DNA of 64,000 nucleotides from the NCBI RefSeq assembly GCF_000384475.1, contig NZ_ARWB01000001.1:1902176-1966175 (forward strand), written 5' to 3'. The notes under the pieces were generated by a model. That model did not search any database and had not been told where the DNA came from. It saw only the letters and a program-made list of their open reading frames with translations. This DNA is from Methylopila sp. M107. GTDB taxonomy: Bacteria; Pseudomonadota; Alphaproteobacteria; Rhizobiales; Methylopilaceae. A program made the translations under genes and the position numbers. Shown piece by piece: positions 1-14,266 of the stretch (within the stretch, counting starts at the first letter, position 1; each line of letters opens with the position of its first letter).

Positions 1-794
1 GGGAAGGCCGAGCGCGACAGCTTGGCAAGCGCGAAGTCGAGCACGAAGGCGATCAGCGTGATCCAGGCGACGTAAGGCAAAATGACGTCCATCGCGAGAT
101 AGCGGCGGACGAGGAAGATGCGGTAGCCGAGCCCTGAGTCGGAGGCGATCGCCTCGGCCGCGATCAGGAACAGGAAGGCCGGACCGATCTGCAGCCGCAC
201 GAGCTCGATCAGCCGCGGCATGACCTGCGGCAGCACCACGCGCACGATCGTGGTCCAGGTCGAGGCGCCGAGCGTCTGGGCTTTCACCAGTTGCTCGGTC
301 GGGATCGCCTGAACCGTCATGGCGATGTCGCGGATGATCGGCGGCGCGACACCGATGACGATGAGGATGACCTTCGACAGCTCGCCGAGGCCGAAGATGA
401 TGAACAGGATCGGCAGGATCGCCATCGGCGGGATCATCGAGATGACCGCGACCAGCGGCCCGCCGCCGGCGCCGACGACCGGCAGCACGCCGAGCGCGAC
501 CCCGAGGATCAGCCCGAGCAGGGTCGCGAAGCCGAGGCCCAGCGCGAGGCGCTGCAGGCTGGAAAGCGTGTCGGCGACGAGCGTGATCTCGCCGGTCCGT
601 TTGTCCGGCTCGAACGCCATGCGGGACGCCGTCGCCGACATCTCCGAGATCGGCGGCAGCAGCTTGTCGTTCGGGTTCGCGGCGCGCCGCTCGGCGGAGC
701 CGATGACGTAGACGAAGGCCAGGATCACGAACGGGATGATGGCGAGCAGCAGCCGCCCTCCCCTGCCCGGCTGGATGTTCATCGCGCGGCGCAT
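1..794 (-). CDS. ABC transporter permease, probable guanidine/urea importer (3' end outside window)
   Basis: Inner-membrane permease of the SsuC/TauC/NrtB type, reading leftward from ATG at 794 and running off the left edge after about 264 residues. Hydrophobic helices are visible throughout. The cytoplasmic coupling loop lies near residues 160-190, with the usual Ala-rich start, LGAS and a later VLPQVMP. It lies 154 bp downstream of its binding-protein gene, separated by a palindromic repeat, so the two should be one operon. The ATPase gene is presumably just beyond base 1. The family is historically linked to urea carboxylase. The guanidine riboswitch upstream of the operon suggests guanidine as substrate, which is inference. 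Confidence 0.85.
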   Translation of the reverse strand, partial: MRRAMNIQPGRGGRLLLAIIPFVILAFVYVIGSAERRAANPNDKLLPPISEMSATASRMAFEPDKRTGEITLVADTLSSLQRLALGLGFATLLGLILGVALGVLPVVGAGGGPLVAVISMIPPMAILPILFIIFGLGELSKVILIVIGVAPPIIRDIAMTVQAIPTEQLVKAQTLGASTWTTIVRVVLPQVMPRLIELVRLQIGPAFLFLIAAEAIASDSGLGYRIFLVRRYLAMDVILPYVAWITLIAFVLDFALAKLSRSAF

Positions 795-948: not shown

Positions 949-2007
949 TCACAGCTTCCCGTCGGCCGCCAGCTTCATGTAGGTCGGATCGAAGCGCAGC
1001 TTGACGTTCGCGGCGTCGCCGAGCGTCTTGCCGCCCGCGAAGCCGATGCCGACCGCGTCCTTGGACTTCGCGCCCTCGCCCAGCAGGCCGTGGTCGAACG
1101 AGAAGGTGCGGACGAGGTCCATCGTCTTGATCAGGTCCGGGCTCTCGGTGAAGGCGACGGCGTCGGCCGCCTTGTCGAACAGCTTGGTGGCGGCGAGCTG
1201 GGACTCGAAGCCAGCAAGGTCGGTGCCGGACTGCTTGGCCATCGCCTCCTTGGCGGCCTTGTCCTTCATCGCGGCCATGGTCTCGTACCAGATGCCGGCG
1301 AGCGCCTTGCCGAAGTCCGGATTGTCCTTGAGCGTCTTGGTGTTGACGCCGAGCGTGTCGATGATCTCGCCCGGGATCTTCGATGAGTCGAACAGCAGCG
1401 TCGCGCCGGGCTCGGCCTTCACCTCGGCGAGCAGCGGGTTCCAGGTGACGACCTGTTCGACGTCCGGCGCCTTGAAGGCGGCGACGATGTCGGCGTCGGA
1501 GGTGTTCACGACCTTGACGTCCTTCTCGGCGAGGCCGTTCGCCTCGAGCCCGCGGGCGAGCAGGTAGTGCGAGACCGAGAGCTCGACGAGGTTGATGCTC
1601 TTGCCGGAAAGCTCCTTGATCGACTTCGCGGTCTTCGACACGACGCCGTCATTGCCGTTGGAGAAGTCGCCGACGATGACGGCCGTGGTGTCGACGCCGC
1701 CGGCGGCGGGGATCGTCAGCGCGTCCATGTTGGTCAGCGTCACGCCGTCGAACTTGCCGGCGGTGTACTGGTTGATCGACTCCACATAGTCGTTGATCTG
1801 CGTGACCTTGATCTCGATGCCGTATTTGTCGGCCCACTTCTTCACGATGCCGGCGTCGGCCGCGTAGGGCCACGGCATCCAGCCGACATAGATCGTCCAG
1901 GCGATCTCAAAACTCTTCTTCGGCGCGGCCTCGGCCGGGGTGAGCGCGGCGGGTCCCGTCAGGACTGCGGCCGCGAGGGCGAGGGCTGAGATCAGACGGC
2001 GCGACAT
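949..2007 (-). CDS. ABC transporter substrate-binding protein, riboswitch-controlled (probable guanidine; family labelled urea carboxylase-associated)
   Basis: Periplasmic binding protein of 352 residues in the NMT1/TauA superfamily. I chose ATG at 2007 rather than the upstream in-frame start at 2232. It has a GGGAG ribosome site, begins directly with a signal peptide (cleavage near AEA-AP, residue 28), and the upstream extension would translate riboswitch RNA. The mature start has the YVGWMPWPYAADAGI segment, which matches the periplasmic protein family associated with urea carboxylase loci (TIGR03427-like). The leader carries a guanidine-I riboswitch and a sigma-54 promoter, so the cell expresses it in response to guanidine, probably under nitrogen limitation. 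The substrate assignment is inferred from the riboswitch, not from the protein. Confidence 0.88.
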   Translation of the reverse strand: MSRRLISALALAAAVLTGPAALTPAEAAPKKSFEIAWTIYVGWMPWPYAADAGIVKKWADKYGIEIKVTQINDYVESINQYTAGKFDGVTLTNMDALTIPAAGGVDTTAVIVGDFSNGNDGVVSKTAKSIKELSGKSINLVELSVSHYLLARGLEANGLAEKDVKVVNTSDADIVAAFKAPDVEQVVTWNPLLAEVKAEPGATLLFDSSKIPGEIIDTLGVNTKTLKDNPDFGKALAGIWYETMAAMKDKAAKEAMAKQSGTDLAGFESQLAATKLFDKAADAVAFTESPDLIKTMDLVRTFSFDHGLLGEGAKSKDAVGIGFAGGKTLGDAANVKLRFDPTYMKLAADGKL

Positions 2008-2054
2008 GGAAACTCCCGGGTCCGTGCGGGCGCATCGCCCGCGTTTTCCGAAGA

Positions 2055-2094
2055 GTTCGCCGCGCACACAGGAGGTCGGTCCGCGGCGGCGAAC
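2055..2094 (-). promoter_or_regulatory. Candidate expression-platform hairpin of the guanidine riboswitch
   Basis: A perfect 9-bp stem (GTTCGCCGC with GCGGCGAAC) lies between the aptamer and the gene start. Its loop contains GACCTCC at 2071-2077, which is complementary to GGAGGTC at the 3' edge of the aptamer. Pairing of that loop with the aptamer edge would compete with ligand-bound folding. The switching mechanism is inference; there is no clear T tract, so translational or Rho-linked control is as likely as termination. Confidence 0.45.
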
Positions 2095-2095
2095 C

Positions 2096-2210
2096 CGTGC
2101 AGTGACCTCCCGGGCTTTTGCCCCGCCGTGTCTTCCGGATGTCCCCGGAAGCGCATCTCTCGGACCAGCGCCGCCAAACGAGGCGGCCGGAACCCTAGAC
2201 GCGCTGCACG
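2096..2210 (-). promoter_or_regulatory. Guanidine-I riboswitch (ykkC class) aptamer
   Basis: Read on the minus strand, the hallmark blocks of the guanidine-I class occur in order. CTAGGGTTCCG is at 2198-2188, GGTCCGAGAGA at about 2166-2156, and the ACACGG...GCAAAAGCCCGGGAG block at 2132-2107. An outer P1 stem CGTGCAG (2210-2204) pairs with CTGCACG (2102-2096). An internal helix is formed by CTTCCGG and CCGGAAG. The RNA starts essentially at the transcription start predicted from the sigma-54 promoter. It lies 89 nt upstream of the binding-protein start codon. This class binds guanidinium and turns on genes for its export, import or degradation. Confidence 0.95.
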
Positions 2211-4026: not shown

Positions 4027-5646
4027 TTGACCGCCTTCGGAACATCGCTGCGCCTGCTCCTCATGATCGTGACGCTCGCGCTCGGCGCGCAGGTTTCGCC
4101 ATCTCGCGCCGACCCCGTCGACGACGCCCTCGCGGGCTTCACGACCGACAAATATGACGACACCGAAAAGGCCATCCAGGGCGTGGTGCTGACCGCGCCG
4201 CCGACCGGCAAGGCGATCTTCGAGGCGCTGTCGGCGGGCCGCCTGATGGTCGAGCCCGAAAGCAAGACGGTGCTCATCAAGGAGGCCGACGGCAAGCTGA
4301 CGCTCGCGAAGTCCGGCGAAGCGGCGCCCGCCGAACTCGTCGCCAAGCCCCTCAAGGCCGTCCGCGCCAACAACCGCATCCGTCGCTCGCTCGAGGCCGC
4401 GTCCGGCGCGTTCGAGTTGATGGCGCCGAACCCGGCCGTGCGCATCGGCGCGGCGCGCGCGATCTTCAAGACCCGCGAGCCGACCGCGCTGAAGTCGATC
4501 GAGACCGCGCTCGGGGTGGAAAAGGATTCCAAGGTCAAGGCGGCGCTCGAACAGGCGCGCGCGGCGATCATCCTTGGCAAGGCCGACGCGCCGGAAGCGG
4601 AGCGCGTCGCGGCCGCCGACACGGTCGCGGACGTCGGCAACCAGGACGCCATGACGGCGCTGCGCGCGCTGCCGGCCGACGCGCCCGCGGCGGTCAAGAA
4701 GGCCGCCGACGCCGGGATCGCGTCGATCGAGCGCTGGCTCGGTTTCGCGAGCTTCTTCCAGAACATCACCTTCGGCGTCGCGCTCGGCTCCGTGCTGCTG
4801 CTCGCCGCCATTGGCCTCGCCATCACGTTCGGCGTCATGGGCGTCATCAACATGGCGCATGGCGAGATGGTGATGATCGGCGCCTATGCGACCTTCCTGA
4901 CGCAGTGGCTGATCCGCGACTACGTCCCGGCGCTGAACGGCGCCTCGCTGATCATCGCGATCCCGATCGCCTTCCTCGTCGCGGGCGCGATCGGCGTGCT
5001 GATCGAACGGTCGGTGATCCGCTTCCTCTACGGCCGGCCGCTTGAGACGCTGCTCGCGACCTGGGGCGTCTGCCTCATCCTGCAGCAGGCGATCCGCTCG
5101 ATCTTCGGCCCGACCAACCAGCCGGTGCAGGCGCCCGACTGGCTGCAGGGATCGGTCAGCCTGCTCGGCGTCTCGCTGAACTGGAACCGGATCGCGATCG
5201 TCGGCTTCGCGATGGCCGTGTTCTTCGCCCTGCTCCTGCTGCTGAAGCGCACCAGCCTTGGCCTTAAAGTTCGCGCGGTGACCCAGAACCGCCGGATGGC
5301 GGCCTCGATGGGCATCCGCACCCCCTGGGTCGACGCCATGACGTTCGGCCTCGGCTCCGGCGTCGCCGGCATCGCGGGCGTCGCGCTCAGCCAGATCGAC
5401 AACGTCAGCCCGAACCTCGGCCAGAGCTACATCATCGATAGTTTCCTCGTCGTGGTGTTCGGCGGCGTCGGGAACCTCTGGGGCACGCTGGTCGGCGCCA
5501 TGACGATCGGCGTCGCGAACAAGCTGCTGGAGCCCTTCGCGGGCGCAGTGCTCGGCAAGGTCATCCTGCTGATCGCGATCATCCTGTTCATCCAGAAGAA
5601 GCCCCGCGGCCTGTTCGCGCTCAAGGGAAGGTTCGTGGACGCATGA
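4027..5646 (+). CDS. urtB: Urea ABC transporter permease UrtB
   Basis: Inner-membrane permease of 539 residues in the LivH family. As in other UrtB proteins, about 230 residues of a secreted, Ala-rich helical domain precede the membrane core. The predicted start is TTG at 4027, with AGGA upstream, and gives a signal peptide ending near SRA-DP. ATG at 4063 is the alternative but truncates that signal. The membrane part starts near residue 240 and contains GVMGVINMAHGEMVMIGAY and, later, VVVFGGVGNLWGTLVGA, both hallmarks of branched-chain/urea permeases. It pairs with UrtC. Confidence 0.95.
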   Translation: MTAFGTSLRLLLMIVTLALGAQVSPSRADPVDDALAGFTTDKYDDTEKAIQGVVLTAPPTGKAIFEALSAGRLMVEPESKTVLIKEADGKLTLAKSGEAAPAELVAKPLKAVRANNRIRRSLEAASGAFELMAPNPAVRIGAARAIFKTREPTALKSIETALGVEKDSKVKAALEQARAAIILGKADAPEAERVAAADTVADVGNQDAMTALRALPADAPAAVKKAADAGIASIERWLGFASFFQNITFGVALGSVLLLAAIGLAITFGVMGVINMAHGEMVMIGAYATFLTQWLIRDYVPALNGASLIIAIPIAFLVAGAIGVLIERSVIRFLYGRPLETLLATWGVCLILQQAIRSIFGPTNQPVQAPDWLQGSVSLLGVSLNWNRIAIVGFAMAVFFALLLLLKRTSLGLKVRAVTQNRRMAASMGIRTPWVDAMTFGLGSGVAGIAGVALSQIDNVSPNLGQSYIIDSFLVVVFGGVGNLWGTLVGAMTIGVANKLLEPFAGAVLGKVILLIAIILFIQKKPRGLFALKGRFVDA

Positions 5647-5673
5647 CCGGGTTTTCGACGAGCGCGACGCTGT

Positions 5674-5810
5674 CCCCCTCCCCCTTGCGGGGAGGGGTTA
5701 GGGGTGGGGGTGGTTCAGGATTGAGCGCCACGGCCGAAGGCACTCTACGGTCAACCTTTCGCGCAGCTTTGAACCACCCCCACCCTTACCCTCCCCTCAA
5801 GGGGGAGGGG
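5674..5810. repeat. Palindromic repeat family A, copy 2 (urtB-urtC)
   Basis: Same ends and inner GCGCCACGGCCGAAGGCAC segment as copies 1 and 3. The right arm has a small change (CTCAAGGGGG in place of CCGCAAGGGGG). It fills most of the 199-bp gap between urtB and urtC. Confidence 0.85.
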
Positions 5811-5845
5811 TTCGGAAGCCGTTGCGGCTCGACGGAGGCCCGCCC

Positions 5846-6997
5846 ATGAGCCGCTATCGCTTCCTCGACGGCGCCGGAACGATCTTCCTCGCCGTGGTGC
5901 TCGCCATGGCGGTGCTGATCCCCGCCTCGAACCTGATGCTCACCCCCGACCATCCGCTGCACGTGCCGGACTATCTCGTTCCGCTGCTCGGCAAGTACCT
6001 CGCCTTCGCGATGCTCGCGCTCGCGCTCGACCTGGTGTGGGGCTATTGCGGCATACTCTCGCTCGGCCACGGCGCGTTCTTCGCGCTCGGCGGCTATGCG
6101 ATGGGCATGTACCTGATGCGCCAGATCGGCCCGCGCGGCGTCTATGGCAATCCGGTGCTGCCGGACTTCATGGTGTTCCTTCAGTACACCGAACTGCCGT
6201 GGTTCTGGCTCGGCTTCGACCATTTCTGGTTCGCCGCTCTCATGGTGCTGCTGGCGCCGGGCCTGCTCGCCTTCTGCTTCGGCTGGCTCGCCTTCCGCTC
6301 GCGCGTCACCGGCGTCTACCTCTCGATCATCACGCAGGCGATGACGTTTGCGCTGATGCTCGCCTTCTTCCGCAACGACATGGGGTTCGGCGGCAATAAC
6401 GGCCTCACCGACTTCAAGGACATCCTCGGCTTCCCCGTGCAGGCGCAGGGGACCCGCGCGACGCTGTTCGCGCTGACGGCGCTTTCGCTCTGCGGCGCCT
6501 ATCTGCTGTCGCGCTGGCTCGTGCTGTCGAAGCTCGGCAAGGTGGTGATCGCGGTGCGCGACGCCGAGAGCCGGACGCGGTTCATCGGCTACCGGGTCGA
6601 GAACTACAAGCTCGTGGTGTTCACGCTCTCCGCCATGCTGGCGGGCGTCGCGGGCGCGCTCTACGTGCCGCAGGTCGGCATCATCAACCCGTCGGAATTC
6701 GCGCCCGCGAACTCGATCGAGGCCGTGATCTGGGTCGCAGTCGGCGGCCGCGGCACGCTGGTCGGCGCGGCGCTCGGCGCCTTCCTCGTGAACGCGGGCA
6801 AGACCTGGTTCACGGGCGTCCTGCCCTCGATGTGGCTGTTCGCGCTCGGCGGCCTGTTCGTCGCGACCACGCTGCTGATCCCGAAGGGCATCATCGGCGC
6901 CGTCTCCGACCTGATGGGGTGGAAGCGCAAGAGCGAACTGCCCTCCGCCCCGCCGGCCGCGCCCGCGCCGCCGCCCGCAGCCGCGCCCGCGGAGTGA
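5846..6997 (+). CDS. urtC: Urea ABC transporter permease UrtC
   Basis: Second membrane subunit of the urea importer, 383 residues, LivM family. ATG at 5846 has GGAGG seven bases upstream; an in-frame TTG at 5822 is rejected because it lies before that site. About ten hydrophobic helices are visible. Family signatures include WGYCGILSLGHGAFFALGGY near residue 70 and EAVIWVAVGGRGTLVGA near residue 300. The C-terminus is an Ala/Pro-rich tail of about 20 residues, probably disordered and unusual in degree. The stop lies 4 bp before urtD. Confidence 0.95.
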   Translation: MSRYRFLDGAGTIFLAVVLAMAVLIPASNLMLTPDHPLHVPDYLVPLLGKYLAFAMLALALDLVWGYCGILSLGHGAFFALGGYAMGMYLMRQIGPRGVYGNPVLPDFMVFLQYTELPWFWLGFDHFWFAALMVLLAPGLLAFCFGWLAFRSRVTGVYLSIITQAMTFALMLAFFRNDMGFGGNNGLTDFKDILGFPVQAQGTRATLFALTALSLCGAYLLSRWLVLSKLGKVVIAVRDAESRTRFIGYRVENYKLVVFTLSAMLAGVAGALYVPQVGIINPSEFAPANSIEAVIWVAVGGRGTLVGAALGAFLVNAGKTWFTGVLPSMWLFALGGLFVATTLLIPKGIIGAVSDLMGWKRKSELPSAPPAAPAPPPAAAPAE

Positions 6998-7001
6998 GAC
7001 C

Positions 7002-7766
7002 ATGACGACACCGATCGGCGGCAAGCTCACCGAGGCGCTGCTTTATCTCGACAACATCTCCGTCACGTTCGACGGGTTTCGGGCGCTGAACGCGCTCTCG
7101 CTCTCGATCGACCAGAACGAGATGCGCGCCATCATCGGCCCGAACGGCGCCGGCAAGACCACGATGATGGACGTCATCACCGGCAAGACCCGGCCGAACG
7201 TCGGCGTCGCGGTGTTCGAGGGCGACAAGGACCTGACCAAGCTCGACGAGGCCGCGATCGCCCAGCTCGGCATCGGCAGAAAATTCCAGACCCCGACGGT
7301 GTTCGAGATGCACACCGTCGAGGACAACATCCTGCTGGCGCTGAAGACCGACCGGCGCCCGTTCCCGGTGCTGTTTTCCAAGCGCACGGCCCAGGAGAAG
7401 GAGCGCATCGACGCGCTGCTGGAGCGCGTCCGCCTCACCGGCTCCCGCCACCGCAAGGCCGGAGAGCTCAGCCATGGCCAGAAGCAGTGGCTGGAGATCG
7501 GCATGCTGCTGGCGCAGGAGCCGAAACTCCTCCTCGTGGACGAACCCGCCGCCGGCATGACCGACCAGGAGACCGCGGACACCGCAGACCTGTTGCGCGA
7601 GATCGCCAAGACGCGCTCGGTGGTGGTGATCGAGCACGACATGGTGTTCGTCCGCGACCTCGGGGTGAAGGTCACGTGCCTGCACGAAGGCTCGGTGCTG
7701 GCGGAAGGCTCGCTCGACGCGGTGTCCACTAATGAGCGCGTCGTCGAAGTGTATCTGGGGCGGTGA
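7002..7766 (+). CDS. urtD: Urea ABC transporter ATP-binding protein UrtD
   Basis: Cytoplasmic ATPase of 254 residues, LivG type, energising urea import with UrtE. Walker A is GPNGAGKT (residues 46-53), the signature is LSHGQ, and Walker B is LLLVDEPAAG. The switch histidine is in VVVIEHD. His in the signature loop is typical of UrtD. It begins 4 bp after urtC, consistent with coupled translation. Confidence 0.96.
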   Translation: MTTPIGGKLTEALLYLDNISVTFDGFRALNALSLSIDQNEMRAIIGPNGAGKTTMMDVITGKTRPNVGVAVFEGDKDLTKLDEAAIAQLGIGRKFQTPTVFEMHTVEDNILLALKTDRRPFPVLFSKRTAQEKERIDALLERVRLTGSRHRKAGELSHGQKQWLEIGMLLAQEPKLLLVDEPAAGMTDQETADTADLLREIAKTRSVVVIEHDMVFVRDLGVKVTCLHEGSVLAEGSLDAVSTNERVVEVYLGR

Positions 7767-7793
7767 GGATGGGCGTGGTCGAGCAAGAAGAGG

Positions 7794-7886
7794 CGTCATC
7801 CCCCGGCTTGTCCGGGGGATCCATGCCAGACGCCAAAACGCCGCGTAACGGAACCATGGGTCCCCCGGACAAGCCGGGGGATGACG
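7794..7886. repeat. Palindromic repeat family B (urtD-urtE)
   Basis: CGTCATCCCCCGGCTTGTCC at the left is mirrored at the right end by an inverted copy. A hairpin with a loop of about 40 bases results. The same subtype occurs at 14312-14400 and 22073-22166. Confidence 0.85.
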
Positions 7887-7917
7887 AGGTTTGTTCTGTC
7901 CTGGGAGTGAGAAAGAG

Positions 7918-8613
7918 ATGCTGAGCGTCGACGACATCTCGCTCTATTACGGCTCCTCCCGCGCGCTCCGCGGCGTTTCGGTGACGGCCGCCGCCGGCGA
8001 GGTCACCTGCGTGCTGGGGCGAAACGGCGTCGGAAAAAGCTCGCTGCTCCGCGCGATCTCCGGGCAGCGCCCGATCTCGGGCGGCGACATCACCTTCGAG
8101 GGCAAGTCGATCGCGGGCCTGAAGCCCTACGACCGCGCGAGCCTCGGCGTCGCCTATGTGCCGCAGGGCCGCGAGATCTTCCCGCTGCTGACCGTCAAGG
8201 AGAACCTCGAGACCGGCTTCGCGCCGCTGAAGCGCGGCCAGCGGACGATCCCCGACGACGTCTTCGACCTGTTCCCGGTGCTGAAATCCATGCTGCATCG
8301 GCGCGGCGGCGATCTGTCCGGCGGCCAGCAGCAGCAGCTCGCGATCGGCCGCGCGCTGACGACGCGGCCGAAGCTTCTGATCCTCGACGAACCGACCGAG
8401 GGCATCCAGCCGTCGATCATCAAGGACATCGGCCGCGCCATCAAATATCTTCGCTCCAAGGGCGGCATGGCGATCGTGCTGGTCGAGCAGTACTTTGATT
8501 TCGCGCAGGAGCTCGCCGACCGCTTCATCGTGATGGAACGCGGCGAGGTGATCGAACGCGGCGACGCCAAGGCGCTCGAGGGAGACGATGTCCGCCAGCG
8601 GCTTGCGTTCTGA
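7918..8613 (+). CDS. urtE: Urea ABC transporter ATP-binding protein UrtE
   Basis: Second ATPase of the importer, 231 residues, LivF type. ATG at 7918 follows GGGAG; an in-frame start at 7891 lies in repeat-adjacent sequence and is rejected. Walker A is GRNGVGKS (34-41), the signature is LSGGQQQQ, and Walker B is LLILDEPTEG with the family sequence EGIQPSII after it. The last 26 bases overlap the first possible ureD start, placing urea uptake and urease in one transcript. Confidence 0.96.
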   Translation: MLSVDDISLYYGSSRALRGVSVTAAAGEVTCVLGRNGVGKSSLLRAISGQRPISGGDITFEGKSIAGLKPYDRASLGVAYVPQGREIFPLLTVKENLETGFAPLKRGQRTIPDDVFDLFPVLKSMLHRRGGDLSGGQQQQLAIGRALTTRPKLLILDEPTEGIQPSIIKDIGRAIKYLRSKGGMAIVLVEQYFDFAQELADRFIVMERGEVIERGDAKALEGDDVRQRLAF

Positions 8614-9619
8614 GGAATTGGGGACGAAGGCGCTGGAAACTCAGCCGTCGCGCCCATCGGCCCACCTGTCCCCCTCCCCCTTGCGGGGAGGGGTTAGGGG
8701 TGGGGGTCGTCCAGAACATGGCGCCACGCCCGAAGCTGCTCTACGCCGAACTGCGATGCTTCATCGTGAGCCACCCCCACCCCTAACCCCTCCCCGCAAG
8801 GGGGAGGGGAACGGCGGCGCGCGGCGCCAGCGCGCGGAAGGCCGGATCGCGGTCGAGGTCGTGGCGCTCGGCGGGATCTCGCGCGTCGCCCGGGTCGCCG
8901 AAAGCGGCTCGTCGCGGCTGAGGCTGCCGCGCTCCGAGCACGGGCTCGACGGCGTCATGCTCAACATCGCGGGCGGCATCGCCTGCGGCGACCGGATGAG
9001 CGTCGAGGTCTCCGCCCGCCCCGGCGCGCGCCTGACGCTCTCGACGCCCGGCGCGGAGCGCATCTACCGCTCCGACGGCGCCGACGCCGAAATCTTTACG
9101 CGCCTCGTCGCGGAAAAGGGCGCCTCGATCGCATGGCTGCCGCAGGAGACCATCCTGTTCGACCGCGCGCGCCTGAAGCGCCGGCTCGACGCCGACCTCG
9201 CCCCCGACGCCACCCTGACCGCCTTTGAGGCGATCGGCTTCGGCCGGCAGGCGCGCGGCGAGACGGTGCTGGCCGGCCTCATCGAGGATCGCTGGCGCGT
9301 GCGGCGCGACGGAAAACTCGTCTTCGCCGAGACGCTGAGGCTCGACGGCGCGATCCACGACACGCTCGGCAAACGCACGGTCGCGAACGGAGCGACCTCG
9401 CTCGCGACGCTGCTCCACGTCGCGCCGGACGCCGAAGCGAAGCTCGAGGCTGTCCGCGAGGCGCTCGCGAGCCACGACGTCGAGGCCGGCGTCACCGCCT
9501 GGAACGGCATGCTGGTCGCGCGTATCCTGAGCGTCTCCGCCGAGCGCCTGCGCGACGCCGCCCGCGCCGCGCTGCCGACTCTCATCGGCCGCCCCCTCCC
9601 CCGCGTCTGGTCCTGTTGA
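8588..9619 (+). CDS. ureD: Urease accessory protein UreD with repeat-derived N-terminal insert
   Basis: UreD (UreH) forms the UreD-UreF-UreG complex that loads nickel into apo-urease. The conserved region begins at about residue 81 (QRAEGRI) and includes LNIAGGIACGDRM, the counterpart of the family LNTAGGLTGGD motif. Residues 28-74 are encoded by palindromic repeat copy 3 and read as Pro/Gly/Arg-rich low complexity. The start is uncertain. ATG at 8588 gives 343 residues; the only later in-frame ATG before the core (8756) is inside the repeat. Either way part of the protein comes from the repeat. Without it the length (about 285) is normal for the family. Confidence 0.88.
   Translation: MSASGLRSEELGTKALETQPSRPSAHLSPSPLRGGVRGGGRPEHGATPEAALRRTAMLHREPPPPLTPPRKGEGNGGARRQRAEGRIAVEVVALGGISRVARVAESGSSRLRLPRSEHGLDGVMLNIAGGIACGDRMSVEVSARPGARLTLSTPGAERIYRSDGADAEIFTRLVAEKGASIAWLPQETILFDRARLKRRLDADLAPDATLTAFEAIGFGRQARGETVLAGLIEDRWRVRRDGKLVFAETLRLDGAIHDTLGKRTVANGATSLATLLHVAPDAEAKLEAVREALASHDVEAGVTAWNGMLVARILSVSAERLRDAARAALPTLIGRPLPRVWSC
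8670..8809. repeat. Palindromic repeat family A, copy 3, inside ureD
   Basis: Both inverted ends (CCCCTCCCCCTTGCGGGG... and its reverse complement) and the inner GGCGCCACGCCCGAAG-type segment match copies 1 and 2. Here the element lies wholly within the ureD reading frame without a stop codon, joining the urtE end to the conserved UreD core. Confidence 0.85.
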
Positions 9620-9625
9620 GCGCCC

Positions 9626-10246
9626 ATGAACCTCACCCCCCGCGAAAAAGACAAGCTGCTGATCGCGATGGCCGCGATCGTCGCGAGGAACCGGCTCGCC
9701 CGCGGGGTGAAGCTCAACCACCCCGAATCGATTGCGCTGATCACCGATTTCGTCGTCGAGGGCGCTCGTGACGGGCGCTCGGTCGCCGAGCTGATGGAGG
9801 CCGGCGCCCATGTGCTGACGTCGGATCAGGTGATGGATGGGATCCCCGAGATGATCCACGACATCCAGGTCGAGGCGACCTTCCCGGACGGCACCAAGCT
9901 CGTGACGGTGCATCACCCGATCCGCGGGCCGGCCTCCGAGCTTTCGGCCGGCGAGGTCATCACGGCGGCGGGCGAGATCGAGCTCAACGCCGGCGCCGAG
10001 ACCGTGACGGTCACGGTCGCCAACACCGGCGACCGGCCGATTCAGGTCGGCAGCCATTACCATTTCTTCGAGACGAACCCGGCGCTCGACTTCGACCGCG
10101 CAGCCACACGCGGCATGCGGCTCGACATCGCCTCGGGAACCGCCGTGCGCTTCGAGCCGGGCCAGACGCGGACCGTGACGCTGGTTCCGCTCAGCGGCGC
10201 GCGCACGGTCTACGGGTTCCGCCAGGACGTGATGGGCGCGCTTTGA
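9626..10246 (+). CDS. ureAB: Urease gamma/beta fusion subunit
   Basis: Structural urease subunit of 206 residues. Residues 1-100 are a complete gamma subunit (begins [17 protein letters not shown]; contains [19 protein letters not shown] and VTVHHPI). Residues 105-206 are a beta subunit ([33 protein letters not shown]). Most bacteria encode these separately; a fusion is known in Helicobacter and in some alphaproteobacteria. It starts 6 bp after ureD and ends 29 bp before ureC. The lone fused gene plus ureC completes the enzyme. Confidence 0.95.
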
Positions 10247-10275
10247 GCCGCCGGCCCTCTCTGAGGATCAGCTGA

Positions 10276-11988
<1,713 letters not shown>

Positions 11989-12000
11989 GCGCCAAGCGTT

Positions 12001-12078
12001 CGTCATTGCCGGGCTTGACCCGGCAATCCATCGCCTTCGCGAAGCGGATGGATGCCCGGGTCAAGCCCGGGCATGACG
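12001..12078. repeat. Palindromic repeat family B (ureC-ureE)
   Basis: CGTCATTGCCGGGCTTGACC at the left, inverted copy ending CCCGGGCATGACG at the right, with an inner TCCATC/GATGGA pair. Same subtype as 57752-57829. Confidence 0.8.
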
Positions 12079-12112
12079 ATGTCAGGTGCGCCTCAACTTA
12101 CAGTCCGATCAA

Positions 12113-12559
12113 ATGACCCGAGCTGTGTCCGTCATCCGCCGCCCGGCCGTAAAACCGGCCCTCGTCACGGATCGCATCACGCTCGACCACGAGGCGCGCG
12201 GGCGGCGCCGGCTTGCGATGACGACCGACGGCGGGCTCGACTTCCTGCTCGACCTCGCCCGCCCCGCAAACCTCTTGGACGGCGACGCGCTCGCGCTCGA
12301 TGACGGGCGGGTTGTCGAAGTGCGGGCCGCCGAGGAAGAGCTGATCGAGATCACCGCATCGACGCCGCTCCGCCTCGCCAAGATCGCCTGGCATCTCGGC
12401 AATCGTCATACGCCCGCGGAGGTGACGGCGGAGGCGATCTATGTCGCGCCCGACCATGTGCTGGTCGAGATGGTGCGGGGACTTGGCGGCGCGGCGAATC
12501 CGGTCAAGCGGCCGTTCCGGCCAGAGCAGGGCGCTTATCACGGGCATGCCCATGAGTGA
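12113..12559 (+). CDS. ureE: Urease accessory protein UreE (nickel metallochaperone)
   Basis: Nickel-binding chaperone that delivers metal to the urease assembly complex, 148 residues from ATG at 12113. GTG at 12086 is an alternative but adds residues not typical of the family. The N-terminal half has RITLDHEARGRRRLAM; the C-terminal half has the metal-binding region AWHLGNRHTPAEV with the conserved HLGNRH. The tail ends YHGHAHE, a short His-rich extension. Its last 8 bases overlap ureF. Confidence 0.92.
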   Translation: MTRAVSVIRRPAVKPALVTDRITLDHEARGRRRLAMTTDGGLDFLLDLARPANLLDGDALALDDGRVVEVRAAEEELIEITASTPLRLAKIAWHLGNRHTPAEVTAEAIYVAPDHVLVEMVRGLGGAANPVKRPFRPEQGAYHGHAHE

Positions 12560-13652
12560 CGCTTTCGCACTGGAAACACCGCCGTCATGCCCGGCCGAAG
12601 GCCGGGTATCCACGACTTCGCCTGTCGAGGGCGCCGCCGTCGAAGTCGTGGATACCCGCGCTTCGCGCGGGCATGACGGCGAGGGTGGAACCGCTCCCAG
12701 CGCCTCGTCGGCCGCCGCCGTCACCACCCTCCTCGCCTGGCTTTCCCCCGCCTTCCCGGTCGGCGGCTACGCCTACAGCCACGGGCTCGAACAGGCGGTC
12801 GAGGACGGCGACGTCGTCGACGAGGCGTCCCTGGAGGGCTGGCTGACGGACGTGCTCAGCCTCGGCCTCGGGCGAAACGACGCCATCCTGCTGCAAGCGG
12901 CGCACCGGGCGGCCGACCTGTCCCCCTCCCCCTTGCGGAACCGTGGCGACGTCGGCGCTCCCGGTTCCTCCTCCGCGAAAGCGGGGGAGGGGGACCATGC
13001 GGAGCATGGTGGAGGGGGCGCGCTTCAGGATGAGGCCCGATCGTCGAACCCGTTGCCCTACGATCCGCCCCCTCCACCGCTTCGCGCTCCCCCTCCCCCG
13101 TGCGTCCCGCACGGAGGAGGATCAAGAAGCCTCGCCTCCGAAAGCGCATCGACGATCGGCGAAGTGCATCCGAACGCCGACCCCGCTGGCCCGTCGCCTT
13201 CCCTCTCCGAGATCAACGAACTGGCGCTGGCCTTCGCGCCGACGCGCGAGTTCCATCTCGAAACCAGCCAGCAGGGCCGCAGCTTTCTCGACGCCTTGCT
13301 CGCGGCATGGCCGAATGGGCGCCTGACGGAGATCGCGAGAGATCTCGACGGACAGGTCGCCTACCCCGTCGCGGTCGGCGCGGCGGCGGCGGCCCACGAC
13401 GTTCCGGCGACTGAGGCGGCCGCCGCCTTCCTGGTCGCGATCGCGCAGGCGCTGGTGTCGGCGGGGGTGCGGCTCGCGCCGATCGGGCAGACCTCCGGCG
13501 CGAAGATCGTCGCCCGAATCGCCCCCCTCGCCCGCGCGATCGCGGAGCAGACCGCCACGCTCACCATCGACGATCTCGCCAACGCGACCTTCAGGCTGGA
13601 CCTCAGCTCCGCCCGCCACGAGACTCAATACACAAGGCTTTTCCGCTCATGA
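12552..13652 (+). CDS. ureF: Urease accessory protein UreF with two repeat-derived insertions
   Basis: UreF bridges UreD and UreG during nickel insertion. Conserved core segments are [20 protein letters not shown] near residue 65, then [20 protein letters not shown] after residue 215, and [11 protein letters not shown] near residue 320. At 366 residues it is far longer than the usual 220-240. The excess is explained by two palindromic repeats read in frame: residues 11-42 (family B, 12583-12678) and about 124-193 (Pro/Gly-rich, 12921-13130). The second sits between two helices of the core. No stop or frameshift is seen, and the surrounding codons remain conserved. ATG at 12552 overlaps ureE; ATGA overlaps ureG. 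Confidence 0.88.
12583..12678. repeat. Palindromic repeat family B inside ureF (N-terminal)
   Basis: CGTCATGCCCGG...GTATCCACGACTTCG at the left is mirrored by CGAAGTCGTGGATACCCG...GCATGACG. The length is 96 bp, exactly 32 codons, so the frame is kept. Same subtype as the intergenic copies at 22767-22858 and 53730-53823. Confidence 0.85.
12921..13130. repeat. Repeat-derived insertion inside ureF (family A-like, diverged)
   Basis: The left end TCCCCCTCCCCCTTGCGG repeats the family A terminus. Internally there are inverted GGGGGAGGGGGACC and GGAGGGGGCG blocks, a small ATGCGGAGCAT palindrome, and CCCCTCCACC and CCCCCTCCCCC blocks on the right side. The span is about 210 bp (70 codons) without a stop in the ureF frame. 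Boundaries are approximate. Confidence 0.65.
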
Positions 13653-14266
13653 CTTCTCACAACGGCCCGCTTCGCGTCGGCGTCGGCGGCCCCGTCGGCT
13701 CGGGCAAGACCGCGCTGATGGAGGCGCTCTGCAAGCGGTTTCGCGAGACCTACGACATCTGCGCCATCACCAACGACATCTACACCAAGGAGGACGCGCG
13801 CATCCTTGTCGAGGCCGGCGCGCTGCCGGCGGAGCGCATCATGGGGGTCGAGACCGGCGGCTGCCCGCACACCGCGATCCGCGAGGACGCGTCGATCAAC
13901 CTCGCGGCGATCGCGGAAATGTCGAAGCGGTTTCCGCAGCTCGATCTCGTGCTGATCGAGAGCGGGGGCGACAATCTCGCGGCGACCTTCTCGCCGGAGC
14001 TCGCCGACATCACCGTCTATGTCATCGACGTCGCGGGCGGCGAGAAGATTCCTCGCAAGGGCGGGCCGGGCATCACGCGCTCGGATTTTCTGGTCGTGAA
14101 CAAGACCGACCTCGCGCCGCTGGTCGGGGCCAATCTCGAGATCATGGAGAGCGACACGATCCGCATGCGCAAGGGCGGCCCTTACGTGTTCGCCTGCGTG
14201 AAGAACGGCGACGGCGTCGAGGACGTCGCCCGCTTCATCGAGCGCGCGGGGGGATTGGGCGGGTGA
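13649..14266 (+). CDS. ureG: Urease accessory GTPase UreG
   Basis: SIMIBI-class GTPase of 205 residues that drives nickel transfer to urease. The P-loop GGPVGSGKT is at residues 13-21. The nickel-binding CPH motif is in [11 protein letters not shown], and [11 protein letters not shown] is the guanine-specificity NKxD. ATGA overlap with ureF shows translational coupling. It is the last gene of the urt-ure block; a palindromic repeat and two convergent stops follow. Confidence 0.97.

Follow-up and report, generated by a model that had tools for sequence, protein, structure and literature searches.

A window of 64,000 nucleotides from Methylopila sp. M107 (the whole stretch analysed here, contig C1 1902176-1966175 of the genome) very probably holds the start of a pathway that takes up and degrades guanidine. 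A guanidine-I riboswitch would turn on a leftward operon, whose binding protein, permease and ATPase would import guanidine; the guanidinase GdmH, helped to its nickel by a histidine-rich protein termed HisR, would hydrolyse guanidine to urea and ammonia, and the urease of the divergent urt-ure cluster would then split the urea. The riboswitch, the gene order, the residue signature of GdmH and the conservation of the set are direct observations, and co-transcription of the whole set is presumed. The operon continues outside the window (genome C1 1897880-1902175) with the genes for the ATPase, GdmH, HisR and a HupE/UreJ protein, all on the same strand. This left flank was fetched as locus L002, where a window position equals the L002 position minus 17176.

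949..2007, minus strand: substrate-binding protein of family TIGR03427, ATG at 2007, GGGAG ribosome site at 2013-2017
1..794, minus strand: ABC permease, cut by the window edge
L002:16379-17158, operon strand: ATPase, left of the window
L002:14512-15717, operon strand: GdmH, a 401-aa arginase-family protein labelled agmatinase
L002:13510-14058, operon strand: HisR, His-rich protein (174-182 aa), after gdmH
L002:12881-13513, operon strand: HupE/UreJ protein, PF04955 at 186 bits
2477..3766, plus strand: urtA, urea-binding protein, TIGR03407 at 566.6 bits (cut-off 492.75), the divergent neighbour
4027..8613, plus strand: urtB, urtC, urtD and urtE, each over its own cut-off
9626..14266, plus strand: ureAB fusion, ureC, ureE-like gene, ureF (by position) and ureG

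When the whole window was scanned with cmscan, four Rfam matches exceeded their cut-offs, among them Guanidine-I (RF00442) at 2209-2105 on the minus strand, with 88.6 bits against a gathering score of 63 bits (E 1.5e-14). The match covers model positions 1-107 of 107, and thus the full length, and the genome (4,453,493 bases, one contig) contains no second copy. The preliminary description had placed a guanidine-I aptamer with a closing P1 stem upstream of the leftward ABC operon and had called for covariance-model scoring; that scoring has now confirmed the aptamer, and the described span, 2096-2210, is correct in taking in the P1 stem, which has seven pairs in the window: CGUGCAG (2210-2204) with CUGCACG (2102-2096).

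2105..2209, minus strand: Guanidine-I riboswitch aptamer (RF00442), covariance-model match
2204..2210, minus strand: 5' strand of closing stem P1, CGTGCAG, pairing with 2096-2102
2096..2102, minus strand: 3' strand of closing stem P1, CTGCACG, pairing with 2204-2210
2104..2112, minus strand: 5' strand of competing hairpin T, CGGGAGGTC, occupying the aptamer 3' strand
2069..2077, minus strand: 3' strand of competing hairpin T, GACCTCCTG, with no T-run after it in this genome
2086..2096, minus strand: 5' strand of alternative hairpin B, GGGTTCGCCGC, overlapping P1 by one base and excluding T
2053..2063, minus strand: 3' strand of alternative hairpin B, GCGGCGAACTC

The leader can form three mutually competing helices, P1, T and B, and in T the aptamer 3' strand pairs with GACCTCCTG. 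These were followed in 58 leaders found by pattern in 121 sequences, 52 of them distinct. Counts over leaders are not independent, since the leaders are related: helices of at least seven pairs occur for P1 in 40 of the 52 distinct leaders (15% of shuffles), for T in 46 (22% of shuffles) and for B also in 46, against 64% of shuffles, so that the length of B hardly exceeds that of shuffles. P1 also shows compensatory variants among the leaders, for example GTGCAG/CTGCAC and GTGCGG/CCGCAC. When each helix was forced in turn, the folding energy came to -86.0 kcal/mol for P1, -87.1 for B and -79.6 for T. The guanidine-I class is described as selective for guanidine and usually as a transcriptional ON switch (PMC12186494), and an ON direction is expected from the class in this genome as well. 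With guanidine present, P1 would close the aptamer and hold its 3' strand; with guanidine absent, that strand would pair with the downstream GACCTCC to form hairpin T, the presumptive OFF state.

The window sequence has no T-run after hairpin T, and a T helix of at least seven pairs followed by at least five T in the next 10 bases is found in only eight of the 52 distinct leaders, among them L093 with seven T, a relative in which hairpin T is followed by a terminator-like CTTTTCTTTC. Regulation through translation or Rho instead of an intrinsic terminator is therefore a serious possibility, if somewhat short of even. It sits poorly with the usual transcriptional mode of the class (PMC12186494) and with the position of hairpin T, which leaves the ribosome site uncovered, its end lying about 60 bases short of the start codon.

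The best PDB matches of GdmH are 7esr/7oi1 (548 bits) and 9fek (527 bits), and the next enzyme, a guanidinobutyrase, follows at 171 bits. These entries are named 'probable agmatinase 2' and 'putative agmatinase 2' in the PDB; we take them to be the Synechocystis and N. inopinata guanidinases, and their residue numbering agrees with that identity (with an offset of two for 9fek). A guanidinase call is said to require Thr, His and Trp (T105, H222 and W313 of N. inopinata), and the metal ligands are given in the same source (PMC11410670). With E344 (N. inopinata), these published residues make up a ten-residue signature, and GdmH has all ten: T119, H196, D220, H222, D224, H235, D312, D314, W326 and E356. 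By its residues, the 'agmatinase' is thus most likely a guanidinase, predicted to hydrolyse guanidine in a nickel-dependent manner. One may argue that it hydrolyses another guanidino compound (agmatine, methylguanidine or guanidinobutyrate) and that the operon does not serve free guanidine, as the annotated agmatinase family and matches to NCBIfam agmatinase models, which lie below their cut-offs, would have it. The complete signature, the roughly 550 bits to guanidinase structures as opposed to 171 to the next enzyme, and the selectivity of the riboswitch class (PMC12186494) make this very unlikely.

To follow the operon across genomes, named loci were taken as the best 80 of 542 GdmH relatives in a contig scan, the remaining 462 standing outside the counts. 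By title, 79 of these 80 are alphaproteobacterial, and L171 is labelled just Pseudomonadota. All ten signature residues are present in 82 of 82 GdmH proteins, that is, in the best 80 of the 542 relatives and in two plasmid loci. A riboswitch is found at 77 of the best 80 loci, the exceptions being L153, L171 and L172 (the last ends at the contig end), and all three ABC genes are present at 70 and none at nine. HupE/UreJ, a nickel permease family, is encoded at 20 of the best 80, 16 times after HisR and four times upstream of the switch. Within 199 genomes of the same order, a riboswitch match occurs in 46 (36 over the cut-off) and a GdmH-like protein (E up to 1e-60) in 26; in 20 the riboswitch precedes gdmH by no more than 5 kb and shares its strand.

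Several loci depart from this arrangement. In eight loci from Ancylobacter, Hansschlegelia and two Xanthobacteraceae MAGs (L133, L134-L138, L143, L152) the switch directly precedes gdmH, with no ABC genes. Two loci of the same genus carry the riboswitch and ABC genes without gdmH: L102 (genome G193) has the same ABC genes, with MSMEG_0572-family and Nit6803-family nitrilase genes downstream, and L104 (G034) has HupE, with a convergent urtABCDE adjoining. The GdmH-like proteins of L053, L055, L056 and L057 have Thr or Ser at the guanidinase Trp and perhaps act on another guanidino substrate. On a Rubrobacter indicoceani plasmid (L213), a Guanidine-I match (70.5 bits, own model) and a guanidinase occur without HisR, together with genes for a sodium:solute symporter, formamidase and urease. 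GdmH proteins of HisR loci (L131-L212 and others) are extended at the N-terminus by a stretch that carries a His-His-Pro motif, detected by a strict pattern in 49 of 88 GdmH (some of the 88 being duplicates) and by eye in all but L044 among the 39 rows listed; it is absent in L055-L057. In the window genome, the gap between the ATPase gene and gdmH measures about 660 bases; in it a 177-nt repeat that contains long palindromes occurs twice (94%; L002:15809-16375), and this repeat-bearing gap could uncouple gdmH from the switch. A GGVRGGG/PPRKGEG translation resembling the repeat also occurs in the ureD frame near window 8650-8800.

The TauA-like binding protein matches TIGR03427 (ABC_peri_uca) at 547.3 bits, against a cut-off of 333.9, and this family is named 'putative urea ABC transporter substrate-binding protein' by NCBI. 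The preliminary description had nevertheless proposed, on the strength of the riboswitch alone, that binding protein and permease import guanidine, and several independent observations support it. A guanidinase is encoded in the same-strand gene set downstream, outside the window, and binding protein, permease and ATPase accompany 70, and the riboswitch 77, of the best 80 guanidinase loci. The same riboswitch and TIGR03427 family also stand ahead of 'urea carboxylase' operons, at nine loci by gene order; four of these were scanned and matched TIGR02712 at 1791-1858 bits (cut-off 1303.85). Among substrates that carboxylase and guanidinase operons could have in common, guanidine is the simplest. 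Moreover, a second urea importer would be redundant because a complete urtABCDE adjoins the operon. A urea importer as annotated, with the switch responding since urea and guanidine nutrition are linked, would fit the NCBIfam name and the fact that the guanidinase product is urea; given the dedicated urtABCDE alongside, the guanidine riboswitch at so many guanidinase loci and the recurrence of the family ahead of carboxylase operons, it is extremely unlikely. We therefore infer that the leftward transporter imports guanidine. The idea itself is not new, as a review describes ABC transporters of related operons as guanidine importers (PMC12186494).

The divergent cluster would complete the pathway. 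Its ureE match reaches 133.7 bits, just under the cut-off of 144. In the window, in a Methylopila MAG (L131) and in Hansschlegelia (L133), urtA adjoins the switch and reads away from it; in close relatives (L081, L082/L132, L083, L104) ureE-ureF-ureG takes the position of urtA, divergent and about 0.2-0.4 kb from the riboswitch. In four example genomes urease is described as lying outside guanidine riboswitch control (PMC11410670), and the same holds for the urease genes here, which are divergent from the switch. Arranged head to head, the two gene sets suggest a common locus for nitrogen scavenging. An RF02514 (5' ureB sRNA) match of 100 bits at window 10428-10717, antisense to ureC, probably reflects conserved urease coding sequence and not an RNA gene. 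Further along the left flank, amidotransferase-like and glutamate-synthase-like frames (L002:2764-7238) adjoin a gene for type III glutamine synthetase (TIGR03105, 647 bits); the group is reminiscent of N-methylglutamate pathway genes.

HisR is tied to GdmH more tightly than the transporter is. In a search with a profile built from an alignment of 21 members, HisR was found no more than about 0.5 kb after gdmH, in the same orientation, at all of the best 80 loci of the 542 relatives, and is thus more constant than the ABC transporter (70 of 80). In the order sample, HisR matches 23 of 199 genomes and 22 of the 26 with a GdmH-like protein; the four without it (G038, G079, G081, G140) have Thr or Ser for the guanidinase Trp, a replacement seen in no other GdmH examined of that sample, and the sole HisR match without GdmH (G124) covers a His-rich stretch only. 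In a phylum sample of 299 genomes, GdmH (E up to 1e-100) occurs in five, and the same five have an adjacent HisR. The two samples together give 25 guanidinase genomes, all 25 with HisR (G000 and G077 are in both samples, and nine recur among the 80 loci). Among plasmid records, 11 match GdmH and seven of them, all alphaproteobacterial, are also the seven that match HisR; two label it 'hypothetical protein'.

The 21 HisR members belong to no Pfam or NCBIfam family, with single members matching at chance level. At E up to 0.1 they match neither HypA (PF01155) nor the Pfam or NCBIfam models of HypB and UreE, and the sole Pfam match at this level is DUF1236 in one member (E 0.097). Structure prediction (mean pLDDT 75.6) leaves the His-rich tail disordered, with values below 50 for residues 23-34 and 36-51, and folds the C-terminal part confidently into an alpha/beta domain (86-96 for blocks in 61-160). 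For this domain, structural alignment returned nothing above background. Five sequences compared in ten pairs, leaving out the first 40 codons, gave dN/dS values of 0.12-0.29, which puts HisR under evolutionary constraint. Our literature search found no description of a His-rich protein after gdmH; Funck et al. 2022, reportedly the guanidinase discovery paper, could mention one. The word 'histidine-rich' is absent from the main text of PMC11410670.

What HisR does can be approached through nickel. Guanidinase and related ureohydrolases are described as nickel enzymes; co-expressed HypA and HypB activate those for metformin and dimethylguanidine, GdmH is reportedly also activated by nickel chaperones, and HupE is part of the metformin operon (PMC11399263). 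In addition, hypA and hypB are often found in operons with guanidinase genes (PMC8390497). We searched for both in 29 genomes, among them all 25 that have HisR along with guanidinase. Of these 25, 20 lack HypA and five match it (G077, G010, G015, G058, G024), and HypB exceeds its cut-off in four. None of these matches is at the gdmH locus: each lies on a different contig or at a distance of over 250 kb. Sub-cut-off HypB-model matches occur in 28 of the 29 genomes; ureG accounts for the one in the window genome (C1:1915863) and, in G170, G142 and G076, for those close to the switch. Its His-rich tail, the usual absence of HypA and the HupE genes found at 20 of 80 loci make HisR a probable nickel-delivery factor for GdmH: it would most likely bind nickel in the disordered tail and help load the di-nickel site of the enzyme. 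Counting against such a role, three guanidinases of Actinomycetota (L213, L214, L215) have all ten signature residues, yet the stretches fetched for them contain no HisR. Outside Pseudomonadota, the search for HisR extended to four actinobacterial plasmid loci.

Whether HisR represents a new nickel metallochaperone family, dedicated to guanidinase in Alphaproteobacteria, replacing HypA/HypB and docking on the alphaproteobacterial GdmH, perhaps at the His-His-Pro extension, we regard as evenly balanced. HisR could instead store or buffer nickel, act as a metal-responsive regulator or be built into guanidinase as a structural subunit, in which case UreE/UreG could deliver the nickel; we hold this possible but on the doubtful side. 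A long disordered His-rich tail fits storage, a conserved and confident C-terminal domain without a resolved relative fits many roles, the related metformin hydrolase is a two-subunit enzyme (PMC11399263), and ureE and ureG adjoin the operon and might serve GdmH. Such roles are harder to reconcile with the place of HisR in the operon, which is that of HypA/HypB with related enzymes, and with the lack of HypA from most guanidinase and HisR genomes.

Known systems share parts of this arrangement. The Synechocystis operon (gdmH/sll1077, hypA, hypB and an SsuA-like ABC transporter) likewise places a guanidinase under riboswitch control and pairs it with an ABC importer that has a binding protein (PMC8390497, PMC12186494), whereas the Methylopila operon lacks hypA and hypB, has HisR after gdmH and lies alongside a divergent urt-ure cluster. 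The guanidine carboxylase operons of enterobacteria carry guanidine-I and -II riboswitches and also place guanidine-I before a guanidine importer (PMC12186494), but carboxylase, carboxyguanidine deaminase and allophanate hydrolase replace guanidinase and urease. Comammox Nitrospira have a guanidine-I riboswitch and a GdmH-type enzyme with the same residues as well, but with an APC permease in place of an ABC transporter, and neither ABC transporters nor nickel chaperones lie near the riboswitch (PMC11410670). Finally, the metformin hydrolase operon (hypA, hypB, two ureohydrolases and hupE) also joins a nickel ureohydrolase to nickel helpers and HupE, but acts on another substrate and has HypA/HypB where Methylopila has HisR (PMC11399263).

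A pathway in which a guanidine riboswitch governs import and breakdown is thus of a type already known. The analysis corrects three misleading labels, namely urea transporter, agmatinase and hypothetical protein. Loci of Mesorhizobium, Sinorhizobium and Bradyrhizobium are among the GdmH relatives; the gene set spans Alphaproteobacteria including rhizobia, where free guanidine could serve as a nitrogen source. Nickel loading of the comammox guanidinase has been called unclear in print (PMC11410670), and the guanidinase-linked His-rich family makes the nickel-loading question directly testable.
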